From IMG/VR virus record IMGVR_UViG_3300017917_004019, positions 1-24,877 of that record: a stretch of 24,877 nt of DNA, one strand, 5' to 3'. The notes below the pieces were generated by a model. That model was not told the origin of the DNA and did no database searches. It saw nothing but the letters and a program-made list of their open reading frames with translations. Below are positions 4,342 through 16,518 of this stretch, one piece after another. A program made the translations under genes and the position numbers. This DNA is from a virus. Numbering within the stretch: position 1 is the first letter of the stretch; each line of letters starts with the position of its first letter.

Positions 4342-5022
4342 TTATCTATCTCCTTTACTTCTATTTTCTGATTTGTATAGAGGTTGAGTATTTTTATAAT
4401 TAAAACATTTGCTTTGTTGTATAGGGTTAGTTAAATCAAATTTAGAGCAAGGTATTATATGATCAATTTCCCACACCTTACCATGATTATTCCAACTCAT
4501 ATCAGGTTTAAATTGTTTTTCTAGATAAGTTTTATATTCTTCTATATTACAACCTAATAAAGTTAATGCTGAATGATTTTTATTTACTTTACCTCCTTTA
4601 GTATGACGTTTTAAAGCATCAAGTAATCTACCTCTTAATAGTGTTTTAAGCTTAAATTGAGGGTCAGTTTGTTTTTTATTTTTTACCCAATGATTTTCCC
4701 ATTCTCTACCTCCATTTTCTCTCCAATTTAAATTTCTTTCTTTTAAACAAGTTTTACACTCTCCACTTAACCCAAATCTACCTCCTTTTTGTTTATTAAA
4801 CATATTAAAATGAAGTTCTAAGTTACATGAAGAACAAATTTTATGTTTGTCTTTTAAAATTTCAGTTAAGCGTGGGGATTTTTTAGAATGATAATGTTTA
4901 TTATGGTGGGAATGGTTACACTCTCTACATTCTCTTTGTAATCCATCTTTTCGTGTTTTATTCTTATTATAATTTTCTAGAGTTTTTTCTATTTTACAAG
5001 TAGGGCAGGTTTTAGTTTGCAT
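4342..5022 (-). CDS. HNH homing endonuclease with zinc-binding repeats
   Basis: The 226-residue protein has two N-terminal zinc-ribbon-like units, each with paired CxxC knuckles (C6/C9 with C32/C35, and C63/C66 with C89/C92). A C-terminal HNH nuclease domain follows, with WEIDHIIP at about 184-191 (D187, H188) and NYKNTQPL at 208-215. This is the usual design of a free-standing phage homing endonuclease. It lies between gp21 and gp22, genes that are adjacent in T4, so it looks like an intruder. An RNA hairpin directly before its ATG probably controls when it is translated. No frameshift or lost catalytic residue is evident, so it is probably active. Confidence 0.93.
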   Translation of the reverse strand: MQTKTCPTCKIEKTLENYNKNKTRKDGLQRECRECNHSHHNKHYHSKKSPRLTEILKDKHKICSSCNLELHFNMFNKQKGGRFGLSGECKTCLKERNLNWRENGGREWENHWVKNKKQTDPQFKLKTLLRGRLLDALKRHTKGGKVNKNHSALTLLGCNIEEYKTYLEKQFKPDMSWNNHGKVWEIDHIIPCSKFDLTNPIQQSKCFNYKNTQPLYKSENRSKGDR

Positions 5023-5026
5023 AAAG

Positions 5027-5074
5027 GTTGGATTTTATTCTATCAATAAATATTGAAAAAGAACAAAATCCAAC
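5027..5074 (-). promoter_or_regulatory. Hairpin masking the HNH start, with AT-rich box in its loop
   Basis: In the minus-strand RNA the arm at 5074-5061 (GTTGGATTTTGTTC) pairs over 14 bp with 5040-5027 (GAATAAAATCCAAC), with one G-U wobble and no mismatch. The stem ends four bases before ATG 5022. The 20-base loop holds the box AATATTTATT (plus AATAAATA at 5045-5052). The wobble pairs only in the sense RNA. The DNA strand in the other direction has an A-C mismatch, which supports selection at RNA level. Confidence 0.8.
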
Positions 5075-5721: not shown

Positions 5722-7158
5722 TTATCCTCTACCTTGGTTTAGATCTTGAATTTTTTTGTTTGAAGCTGCAATTTTAGCTTTTTCAGCTGCTATTTCTAAA
5801 TCTTTAGCTTTTTTTTCTTCTGGTGTATCATCAGCTTCTTGTAATTCTTCTTCATTACCTATCGCTAAAGCACTATCTAAATAATCTTTTGCTCCAGTTA
5901 AATAATTTTTAGCTAAAACAATTTTTGCTTGCCACCAATGAGGAAAATCAACTTCACCCATATTGTCTACAGCATTAATCATTTTATATAATTCAGTAGC
6001 TTTTTTAGCTATTTGATATAATTCACCTTTAATCATGTGTGGTTCATTATCTTGATGACCTAAATCTAGATCTTCAGCCATAGCTTTTTTTATAGCTTTA
6101 TCGCGTGAGCCTTTATATTCTTCTTCAGATGATTCTATTTTACCATCACCATCATAATCTTTTTTTGCTTTTTTAGCTTTAGCTTCAGCGACCATATTTT
6201 TTAGGTTATCTAAAGGAATACCTGCAGCTTCAGCATATCTTTGTAGTACTTCTTCTTGCTTTTCGTTGATTGGGAATGGATTATAAGTTTCGTCTAATTT
6301 ACCTTGAGTACGTGGATTTACATCAGCTACTTTACCAGCATATTGACCATGTTCATCTAAACCTTTATCAGCAACATAATTTCTGAAATCCTCAACATAA
6401 TCGTCTACAGTTTCAAATTTATCACCTGCTTTTTCTAATGAAGTTAAGTATTGTCTAATTTCAGATTCACTACCTACATCATTAAGTGCTTTTAGTATTG
6501 CTCCTCTTGAAACAAACCCTCCTTCAAATACTTCATCTAAACTATTTTGAAATTTTCTTGCTTCTTCTTCAGATTTAAATGTTTTTTCAGTAGTCCCTTT
6601 AGGACCTCTAAAAGTAACTACCCAATAAGCTCCTTCAGGATGAATACTTGACAATTCATTATGGCCTAAATTTCCTCCTTCTCTAATTATATTTTTCTTA
6701 CCTTTACCAATAGCTTCAGTTGATTTTTTGTTAATTTCAACAGTTTCATCACCATCAAATTTAACTTGACCATACATTTTTTCAGTATAATATGAAGGAT
6801 TTTTAGTTAGATTAGCTAGTACTTTTTTCTGTGCTTTAAATACTTTTTCTTCATCTAAATCTCCATCAGGTGCTGGTACATCTACAATATTAAGTTCATA
6901 ATCCATACCAAGAGAATATTCATATGGATTAACCATATCAATAGTTTTAGCTATGATTTCTACATCTTGTTTTCCTGTAGATTCTTTAGAAGCTTTTTCT
7001 GAAATTATGGATTTGTTTTTTAATATCTTAACAACATCATCAAATGAATTGTTAGGTGATATCATGGTAAGATTTTGATCTCTACGTACCTCGTAAAGAA
7101 ACTTTTGTTTAGTTATCTTACCATCTAGATATTGTGTGTATAAATTTTGTACTGTCAT
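5722..7158 (-). CDS. Putative head core protein with EF-hand loop
   Basis: The 478-residue protein is of unknown function. A canonical calcium-binding EF-hand loop, [12 protein letters not shown], lies at 334-345, with Asp at positions 1, 3 and 5, Gly at 6, Ile at 8 and Glu at 12. It is followed by [14 protein letters not shown] second conserved segment, [20 protein letters not shown], is at 405-424. I recognise both modules from other marine T4-like phages, with no assigned function. gp21-type sites occur at IRE before G161, LDE before T291 and LQE before A442, suggesting cleavage in the prohead. It lies between gp20 and gp21, where T4 encodes core proteins gp67 and gp68, so a core or internal role is plausible but inferred. 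Confidence 0.88.
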
Positions 7159-7161
7159 GGG

Positions 7162-7169
7162 TATAAATA
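7162..7169 (-). promoter_or_regulatory. AT-rich box immediately before the 478-residue gene
   Basis: TATAAATA on the plus strand (AATATTTATA on the coding strand) lies only three bases from ATG 7158. If it is a -10 element, the transcript would start at or beyond the ATG, so this copy either gives a leaderless mRNA or has another role. Confidence 0.4.
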
Positions 7170-7171
7170 TT

Positions 7172-13764: not shown

Positions 13765-13801
13765 AACTTGTTTTATTAGTTTTGTTTATATAATGTAATA
13801 A

Positions 13802-13818
13802 GGCTCCCTACGGGAGCC
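13802..13818 (-). terminator. Hairpin terminator upstream of the kinase gene
   Basis: A perfect 7-bp GC-rich stem GGCTCCC/GGGAGCC (13802-13808 with 13812-13818) has a three-base loop and lies 26 bases after the stop at 13844. On the minus strand it is followed by TTATTACATT, a weak U-tract. It is likely a terminator or 3' stabiliser. Confidence 0.75.
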
Positions 13819-13843
13819 AAATTAGTTTGTATGTAAGTTTAAA

Positions 13844-14281: not shown

Positions 14282-14524
14282 TTAAAATCTTGATTTTACT
14301 TGTGGATTTTTATCTGGTGGTACTCCGTTTCTATCTTTACGTGCTTCAACCCATTCATCTTTAGTATATTGGAAACCATATAAATAATATTCATCTTTTT
14401 TCTTTAATTCTTTAGAATACTTTATAGCAGGTCCATCCCAGTTATGAAGTTTACCATTAAAATGCGTAATTGTTCTACCATCGGTAGAAGTAAACGTTCT
14501 TGTTTTATAATCATTATTTTTCAT
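14282..14524 (-). CDS. Small MORN-like repeat protein
   Basis: From ATG 14524 the product is 80 residues, starting MKNNDYKTRTFTSTDG. A longer reading from 14560 would need a TTG start inside the GIY-YIG gene and is unlikely. The segment HFNGKLHNWDGPAIKY followed by YYLYGFQYTKDEW resembles the short phage repeat pattern of the type NGxLHxxDGPA...YYxxGxxhTxxEW, related in look to MORN repeats. The function of such proteins is unknown. It lies 20 bases after the GIY-YIG endonuclease and may be co-transcribed with it. Confidence 0.75.
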   Translation of the reverse strand: MKNNDYKTRTFTSTDGRTITHFNGKLHNWDGPAIKYSKELKKKDEYYLYGFQYTKDEWVEARKDRNGVPPDKNPQVKSRF

Positions 14525-14544
14525 AATATTAAATATAATAAAAT

Positions 14545-15150
14545 TTATTTGTATTTCCAAATAAACCCATAAGAGGTTTTTTGTCTACCTGCTGCACAAT
14601 CAGCTATACTATTACCGGATTTACCTAAACATCTTCCTGCTTCTTGTGCTGATTGGTATTCGTTAATTAAGTTATTTTTTAAGTCGTATTGGAGTATAGG
14701 TTTATAATGGCTTAAATAATTTTTAGGTTTACCTCTAAGAGCATCTCCTATTTTATCACCCCATAATATTTGTCTCCCTTTATTTGCTTTGCTTAATTTT
14801 TCACACCATTCAGGGGTTTTAGGCCTTTTAGTACCAATTTGTCCTTGACTTTGTTTAGTTTTAACTTCATCAGTATAAGACCATTTAGTTCCTCCAGCAG
14901 AATATTGAGTTTGGTTAACTAACTCTATTCCCTGGGATTTATAGGTGTTTATTAAATTATGTTCGTATTCTATAGCTTGATTTTCATCTTCAAAATATTC
15001 AAGAATTTCAGCTTTAAATCCTACTTTATTAACTATATTATTCCACCCCTTATTATTTCTTTTAGTACGAAAAGCTCTATCTTTACATCCTTTCCCAATA
15101 TAAAAAGGAATATTGTTATCTAATCTTAAATGTTGGTATACATAAAACAT
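14545..15150 (-). CDS. GIY-YIG homing endonuclease
   Basis: The 201-residue protein has an N-terminal GIY-YIG nuclease domain: FYVYQHL at 2-8, FYIGKG at 16-21, an Arg-rich stretch RAFRTKRN and an acidic helix AIEYEHNLINTYKS. The C-terminal part, with ILQYDLKNNLINEYQSAQEA, GNSIADCAAGRQKTSYGFIW and flanking residues, looks like a NUMOD/IENR1 DNA-binding module. The middle shows GTKRPKTPEWCEKLSKANKG, typical of NUMOD3-like repeats. It is free-standing between the FAD oxidoreductase and the MORN-like gene. A 12-bp RNA hairpin ends three bases before the ATG, matching the arrangement at the HNH gene. All expected motifs are present, so it is probably functional. Confidence 0.92.
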   Translation of the reverse strand: MFYVYQHLRLDNNIPFYIGKGCKDRAFRTKRNNKGWNNIVNKVGFKAEILEYFEDENQAIEYEHNLINTYKSQGIELVNQTQYSAGGTKWSYTDEVKTKQSQGQIGTKRPKTPEWCEKLSKANKGRQILWGDKIGDALRGKPKNYLSHYKPILQYDLKNNLINEYQSAQEAGRCLGKSGNSIADCAAGRQKTSYGFIWKYK

Positions 15151-15153
15151 AAT

Positions 15154-15202
15154 ATAAGTATTTAATGTCAGGTATAAATATTACCAGAAGTTAAATACTT
15201 AT
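15154..15202 (-). promoter_or_regulatory. Hairpin masking the GIY-YIG start, with AT-rich box in its loop
   Basis: In the minus-strand RNA, ATAAGTATTTAA (15202-15191) pairs perfectly over 12 bp with TTAAATACTTAT (15165-15154). The stem ends three bases before ATG 15150. The 5' arm overlaps the stop codon of the FAD gene. The 25-base loop contains the box AATATTTATA (TATAAATA at 15173-15180 on plus) framed by GGTA/TACC. The layout equals that of the HNH gene. Confidence 0.8.
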
Positions 15203-16518
15203 GATTGTTTTAAAATACTTTCTGCTATATAAATACCCTGCGCACCTGAGACGCTAATACCTCTAGCGCTTAAAGCATCTCCTGCAAAATAAATATTTGG
15301 GTAAGTTGTTAAAGATAAATTATCATAATTTACTAAAGGCTCTGCACTTAAATATTTTACCTCGGGTATATAGATTCCCCAATCATCTTTTAATGTTGGG
15401 AATACTTTTTTCATATCATCAATAAATTCATCTATGTAATTGAAATAACCTTGGAATGTTTTTCTTACACTAGTCATATCAGCATCACTTATTTGAAAAG
15501 CATCTACTAATTCTCCTTCTGAGGTTAATGAGGGTTTGCGAGATGGTGAATAATATAATCCTTTATTATCTCTGGATTGTAGTTGTTTTACAACTTCTCT
15601 ACTCCATTCAAATGGATTTTCAATACCATTTAATTCCATAATAATACCGAAGTTAGTCATGTTGTTTCTATAACGTTCATCTTTTTTAGCATGACCATTG
15701 TAAGTATAGTTTCCGTATGTTTCTTCTACAGCAACATAAGCAGCATTATTATTAGTACAGAATGAACGTAATGATACTCCTTTATCATCAAATTTTCTAT
15801 ATAATTTAAAATCATATGAAATATCGATTAATTTTTGAAAGTGTTTTTGTGGTGCCTCAAAACGAACTCCAATTTGTACTGATTTAGGTTCAGTTGGTAA
15901 GTCATATTCTTCTGCTAATTGTTTACCAAAGTCAATACCTGATTTACCTACAGCAAATATAAGTTCATCATATCTGTATTCTAACTCATGATTTTCTTTA
16001 TTTAGGAATTTACCTAATACTCTTTTATTTTCAAAATCAATAGCATAAACTTTAGCTTCCCATGTAAATTCAACTCCATTATTAACTAAATATTCATACC
16101 AATTTTTACCAATTTCATGTAAATAATCAGTTCCAACATGCCATACAGGAAATAATCTTAAACCAAAGTATGGTTTAATAAAGTCAGGTTCTGCTTCAGG
16201 ATTTGAGCATTGTACTTCTTCAGGTTTAGGGTGAAAACGTTTAAAGTTATTAATAACTTGATCCATTAATTCCATGGCTTTATCTTCACCACAGTATTTT
16301 TTTAATTGACCACCAATAGCTGTGTGGTAAGTAAGTTTGCCATCAGACCAACCTCCTGCACCTAGCATTCCAGTCATTACTTCACTTGGTAATCTCTTAT
16401 AGGGATCTTTCCCCATATCAATAATAGTGATTTTACCTTTAAAATTGTTATCTACTAGTTTAGTCGCAGCATTAATACCTGCTACTCCAGCACCTACAAT
16501 TACAACATTTTTGCTCAT
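15199..16518 (-). CDS. FAD-dependent oxidoreductase (COG2509-like)
   Basis: The 439-residue protein begins with a classic dinucleotide-binding fold, VVIVGAGVAGINAA, and ends with a second FAD-contact motif, IYFAGDALSARGISVSGAQG. In between, ELIFAVGKSGIDF fits the GD/ATG-type motif of FAD proteins. SLRSFCTNNNAAYV occupies the place of the Cys-rich TFCMCPGG segment of uncharacterised FAD-dependent dehydrogenases (COG2509), but without the second Cys. The reaction and substrate are unknown. It has no capsid tag or signal peptide, so it probably acts in the host cytoplasm. A flavoenzyme inside a phage late cluster is unusual. It begins after a terminator, with an A-rich leader (AAACAAAATG). Confidence 0.88.
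   Translation of the reverse strand: MSKNVVIVGAGVAGINAATKLVDNNFKGKITIIDMGKDPYKRLPSEVMTGMLGAGGWSDGKLTYHTAIGGQLKKYCGEDKAMELMDQVINNFKRFHPKPEEVQCSNPEAEPDFIKPYFGLRLFPVWHVGTDYLHEIGKNWYEYLVNNGVEFTWEAKVYAIDFENKRVLGKFLNKENHELEYRYDELIFAVGKSGIDFGKQLAEEYDLPTEPKSVQIGVRFEAPQKHFQKLIDISYDFKLYRKFDDKGVSLRSFCTNNNAAYVAVEETYGNYTYNGHAKKDERYRNNMTNFGIIMELNGIENPFEWSREVVKQLQSRDNKGLYYSPSRKPSLTSEGELVDAFQISDADMTSVRKTFQGYFNYIDEFIDDMKKVFPTLKDDWGIYIPEVKYLSAEPLVNYDNLSLTTYPNIYFAGDALSARGISVSGAQGIYIAESILKQS

Follow-up and report, generated by a model that had tools for sequence, protein, structure and literature searches.

In the GIY-YIG endonuclease I-TevI, encoded within the td intron of phage T4, a hairpin hides the translation start on the long early and middle RNA, and a late promoter lies immediately upstream, yielding a late RNA whose short length keeps the inhibitory structure from forming (PMC2988022, PMC3014915). 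The same hairpin/promoter switch operates in I-TevII, I-TevIII, segB and mobE, and so spans both GIY-YIG and HNH enzymes (PMC2988022, PMC3014915). The start sites of the T4 late genes e and soc are also sequestered in an RNA helix, and for gene e the long early RNA is blocked whereas the RNA from a nearby late promoter is free (PMC3014915). Late promoters of T4 and KVP40 carry the box TATAAATA, and those of cyanophages NATAAATA.

Here, we examine a leader of this kind in a viral fragment of 24,877 bases (IMGVR_UViG_3300017917_004019; 30% GC), hereafter the window, in which almost all genes lie on the minus strand. Its T4-type terminase, portal, prohead protease, major head protein and PhoH genes mark it as T4-like, and its closest annotated relatives are the Flavobacterium phages immuto, with a terminase identity of 61%. 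By gene content and similarity, the window is a piece of a T4-like phage genome, kin of Flavobacterium phage immuto, and Bacteroidota bacteria are its probable hosts, since the nearest annotated phages infect Flavobacterium. A nucleotide search found no close relative of the window among phage records, and the window has no Rfam match. Two GC-rich stem-loops on the minus strand (13767-13843 and 906-970), upstream of the thymidylate kinase-like and PhoH genes, resemble ordinary terminators of the preceding genes.

Leader hairpins of two endonuclease genes

The gene at 14545-15150 (minus strand) encodes a GIY-YIG homing endonuclease of 201 aa with a C-terminal NUMOD1 DNA-binding repeat, its family membership being given by Pfam matches to GIY-YIG (9e-5) and NUMOD1 (6e-8) and a PHROG homing endonuclease match (2e-16). 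It sits between an upstream FAD/NAD-dependent dehydrogenase-like gene (15199-16518, minus strand) and a downstream gene at 14282-14560 on the same strand. A first-pass annotation had described a perfect 12-bp stem ending three bases before the ATG, with a 5' arm beginning at the stop codon that ends the upstream gene, and both features are confirmed: the 5' arm ATAAGTATTTAA (15191-15202, minus strand) pairs without mismatch over 12 bp with the 3' arm TTAAATACTTAT (15154-15165, minus strand), which is followed by three bases (ATT) and the ATG at 15150, and the 5' arm begins one base ahead of the dehydrogenase TAA (15201-15199), thereby overlapping it. The annotation also placed a box in the loop. 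The box AATATTTATA (15173-15182, minus strand), which we infer to be a late-promoter element, is indeed enclosed by the stem, but both of its ends are paired in an inner stem (UC/GA plus GGUA/UACC; 15168-15188, minus strand) that closes a 7-nt loop, leaving ATATTTA alone as the true loop.

This leader folds at -15.1 kcal/mol (z = -5.0), a value that none of 200 shuffles matches. Perfect stems of at least 12 bp ending no more than 10 nt from the ATG arise in 1 of 2000 dinucleotide shuffles of the leader, and among 721 gene starts of relatives no perfect stem reaches 12 bp and a single one reaches 10. When the 29 genes of the window are ranked by perfect stem, the two endonuclease genes come top, with 12 and 10 bp, and the next has 7. 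By computation, the hairpin occludes the start on read-through RNA, the modelled opening energy of the start region being 13.0 kcal/mol there versus 2.7 kcal/mol in the box-initiated RNA.

The second of these genes (4342-5022, minus strand) encodes an HNH (endonuclease VII-like) homing-type endonuclease of 226 aa (PHROG endonuclease VII, 8e-27); 50 contigs of relatives searched with Pfam HNH_3 gave zero matches. Its leader has the same layout, with a hairpin at 5027-5074 (minus strand) whose outer stem pairs 5060-5074 with 5027-5041 and is followed by four bases and the ATG at 5022, and with the box AATATTTATT (5045-5054, minus strand) inside. The 15-bp stem, which includes G-U pairs, begins about 23 nt past the upstream stop and folds more stably than the GIY-YIG leader, at -20.8 kcal/mol (z = -7.4).

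The hairpin at occupied and empty sites

In the relatives L207 and L017, the former being the nearest with an empty site, a homologue of the gene at 14282-14560 directly follows the dehydrogenase gene. Homologues of the GIY-YIG gene are inserted behind the same dehydrogenase gene in L003-L006 (70-84% identity) and L236 (67% identity), and the site is empty in about 40 relatives, which identifies the endonuclease gene as a mobile insertion. None of these roughly 40 relatives lacking the insert has the hairpin after the dehydrogenase gene; the hairpin therefore belongs to the mobile gene.

Among the GIY-YIG homologues, L003, L004 and L006 retain both the box and the hairpin, the latter with changed bases in its stem; the inner stem is reshaped, and still present, in L003 and L004, and the box is identical in L004 and L006 and changed in its final base in L003. 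L005 has the box and a weak stem. L236 has neither stem nor box, and its start overlaps the upstream dehydrogenase stop (TAATG); this homologue (L236:1501) likely uses translational coupling instead of a hairpin. The HNH homologues L096 and L097 also keep the hairpin, the latter still folding at -19.2 kcal/mol with many stem positions changed. Paired changes occur in the stems of L003, L004 and L006 on the GIY-YIG side and of L096 and L097 on the HNH side, with the layout kept. Formal covariation is modest because homologues are few, with 47 to 117 of 500 shuffles reaching the observed scores, counts that come from small alignments and are suggestive, not decisive.

Across relatives, the hairpins follow two designs. 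The box lies within the hairpin in both window genes and in L003, L004, L006, L096, L097, L118 and L164. In an HNH subgroup (L100, L252, L254, L255 and L257), the box itself forms the 5' arm and the AUG lies in the 3' arm, and base pairing of CATATTTATA with the AUG region (TATAGATATG) is predicted to impose a block of 10-15 kcal/mol on read-through RNA. As modelled, RNA started at the box would be without the 5' arm in either design. If the second design is real, a single sequence would be both promoter and inhibitor, and the promoter's own transcript would leave the inhibitor behind. The combined proposition, that unrelated endonucleases of Bacteroidota T4-like phages repeatedly built gating on a lineage-specific box and that in the HNH subgroup this box doubles as promoter and AUG-pairing inhibitor arm, we judge about evenly poised.

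The box as a candidate late promoter

The sense-strand sequence ATATTTATA clusters 20-29 nt upstream of ATGs in relatives at every distance tested, and its reverse complement shows no such concentration before ATGs in these relatives. For example, the largest gene set has the box 20-29 nt before the ATG in 76 of 650 genes and nearly none elsewhere. Within the examined parts of immuto, TATTTATA stands ahead of 16 of 63 structural genes and 3 of 111 others (Fisher p = 8e-6). The window's sense-strand box is TATTTATA, not the T4-type consensus TATAAATA, which stands before no genes of the closest relatives and is a minority form in more distantly related phages. Judged by its distribution, the TATTTATA box acts as expected of a late promoter in this lineage, its promoter activity being putative. 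The box in the GIY-YIG leader is of this late-gene-associated type and is well placed, since a transcript begun there would not include the 5' arm.

The literature searched, largely open-access papers, contained no description of TATTTATA as a late promoter in Bacteroidota phages. A search for a gp55-type sigma factor turned up, in two relatives, weak matches to sigma-70 region 2 that neither PHROG nor a solved structure confirms; these possible sigma-factor-like ORFs (L269:1126-1827 and L270:1111-1827, both minus strand) are candidates for a late sigma factor. Within the window, the gene at 5722-7158 has a box (7162-7171) just three bases ahead of its ATG, so that either the real start lies further inside or the mRNA would be leaderless.

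Predicted start-site occlusion in endonuclease and ordinary genes

To set the leaders of endonuclease genes beside those of ordinary genes, 434 genes of the window and relatives with a non-coding box upstream were compared, comprising 36 endonuclease and 398 other genes. Block was taken as the opening energy of the start region (-12 to +3) in read-through RNA minus that in box-initiated RNA, modelled as beginning 5 nt after the box; the resulting figures are energy-model output, and the homologues are partly dependent. The median read-through-specific block is 5.6 kcal/mol for endonucleases versus 1.65 kcal/mol for the others (Mann-Whitney p = 8e-14). The opening energy in read-through RNA is 6.8 versus 3.1, and in box-initiated RNA the two classes of these 434 genes do not differ (0.95 versus 1.22). 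Strong hairpins are thus far from equally frequent before box-led ordinary genes, the block reaching at least 9 kcal/mol in 10 of 36 endonuclease genes versus 1 of 398 others.

The difference persists after clustering at 50% identity (13 endonuclease versus 165 other protein clusters, p = 2.7e-6) and when the two families of the window are removed (11 versus 165 clusters, p = 1.8e-5); at 30% identity, where the endonucleases form two clusters only and power is little, p = 0.025. With box distance and GC as covariates in a regression, the endonuclease class still accounts for 4.4 kcal/mol. The result stands when start-point offset, region, distance and GC are taken into account, and a separate screen using arm-to-arm pairing energy agrees. 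In roughly seven further endonuclease genes with a box, the block is small; these models thus suggest that hairpin gating of such genes is common, not universal.

The earlier argument that a shared layout without shared stem sequence speaks for function is supported by these tests and by the stems kept in homologues, with the qualification that some endonuclease genes have no hairpin and that T-even phages already provide known cases of one hairpin/late-promoter design shared by the GIY-YIG and HNH families.

The box is also surrounded by a strong hairpin at two non-endonuclease genes (L230:374 and L206:5838); a homologue of the former (L038:13047) is without a strong one. Additionally, leader structure encloses the box, in two relatives, at a gene for a small predicted membrane protein with a GAWRFYE motif (L021:7037 and L024:258).

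Proposed mechanism and alternative readings

We propose, with a probability of roughly 80%, that the leader gates translation and that this gate is tied to a late promoter, in the manner of T4 I-TevI. Transcripts from upstream promoters would contain both arms and fold, burying the region adjacent to the AUG, so that the endonuclease would not be produced from read-through RNA. Late in infection, the phage polymerase would initiate at the AATATTTATA box within the hairpin, and the resulting RNA, beginning past the 5' arm, would not fold and would be translated. The hairpin would move with the endonuclease gene, which could thus occupy an operon and yet stay silent when the operon is transcribed. 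Since the neighbours here are partly late genes, the gate may shield the endonuclease from all read-through, beyond early RNA. This proposal draws on features read from the DNA, namely the hairpin, the box and the way it tracks late genes and start sites, the link to endonucleases and the absence at empty sites; from these we infer promoter activity, the start point and the effect on translation. Points against a gate include that a ribosome finishing translation of the dehydrogenase gene would sit over the 5' arm and might unfold the hairpin, and that the homologues in L005 and L236 manage with a weak stem and with none.

The palindrome could instead be a DNA operator over the promoter, bound by the endonuclease to repress its own gene, as I-TevI does from a binding site overlapping its late promoter (PMC2988022). 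That the palindrome contains the box fits such a role; however, members of the GIY-YIG family differ in stem sequence yet preserve the pairing, and what the unrelated families have in common is start-site pairing, not sequence, making an operator in place of the gate improbable. It could work alongside an RNA gate.

Alternatively, the hairpin might bridge stop and AUG, allowing terminating ribosomes to reinitiate. In the window, L003, L004 and L006, the stem does have the stop at one foot and the start at the other, and the start overlaps the stop in L236, but the arrangement is missing in the HNH genes and the box-as-arm subgroup, and a promoter-like box inside the stem would go unexplained; we consider such coupling very improbable.

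Nor is the stem easily read as a terminator of the dehydrogenase gene, or as its 3' end, with the next ATG nearby by accident. It begins at the dehydrogenase stop codon, yet it is A-U rich, has no U-run after it, looks unlike the clear GC-rich terminators of the window and is missing from dehydrogenase genes without a downstream endonuclease, and the HNH hairpin begins well past its upstream stop; such an origin is scarcely credible.

A chance palindrome, for which the AT-rich genome and a partly self-complementary box might speak, is rejected by the shuffle and gene-start counts and by conservation in homologues, and is the most far-fetched account.

Comparison with known systems

The gating principle itself is already known from T-even phages, for GIY-YIG and HNH endonucleases alike. 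By anatomy, the window leader is an I-TevI-type switch, with a putative promoter and a predicted translational effect, and it resembles I-TevI in the arrangement of a predicted start-hiding hairpin and a putative late promoter. I-TevI, however, is intron-borne, with a hidden Shine-Dalgarno sequence and the box TATAAATA, whereas the window gene is free-standing, with no clear Shine-Dalgarno sequence and the box TATTTATA. In being free-standing between phage genes, it is closer to mobE (Aeromonas phage Aeh1, HNH) and segB (T4, GIY-YIG), which differ in phage lineage and box and resemble it in design. T4 e and soc show the same start sequestration in phage genes rather than mobile endonuclease genes.

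What is new here is the phage lineage, the box TATTTATA in place of TATAAATA and the HNH subgroup with predicted box-AUG pairing; the lack of an evident Shine-Dalgarno sequence in the window leader is a further difference. As in other T4-like phages, a short AT-rich box stands shortly before late genes, in this lineage the sense-direction TATTTATA instead of TATAAATA or NATAAATA, which names a candidate late-promoter element for a little-studied group. Because the stems of the unrelated families share no sequence, the leaders are a candidate for the repeated origin of one regulatory design. Taken together, the comparison suggests that the silencing of mobile endonucleases until late infection is not a T-even peculiarity and recurs in another large T4-like group, with another promoter box and in hosts that may initiate translation differently.
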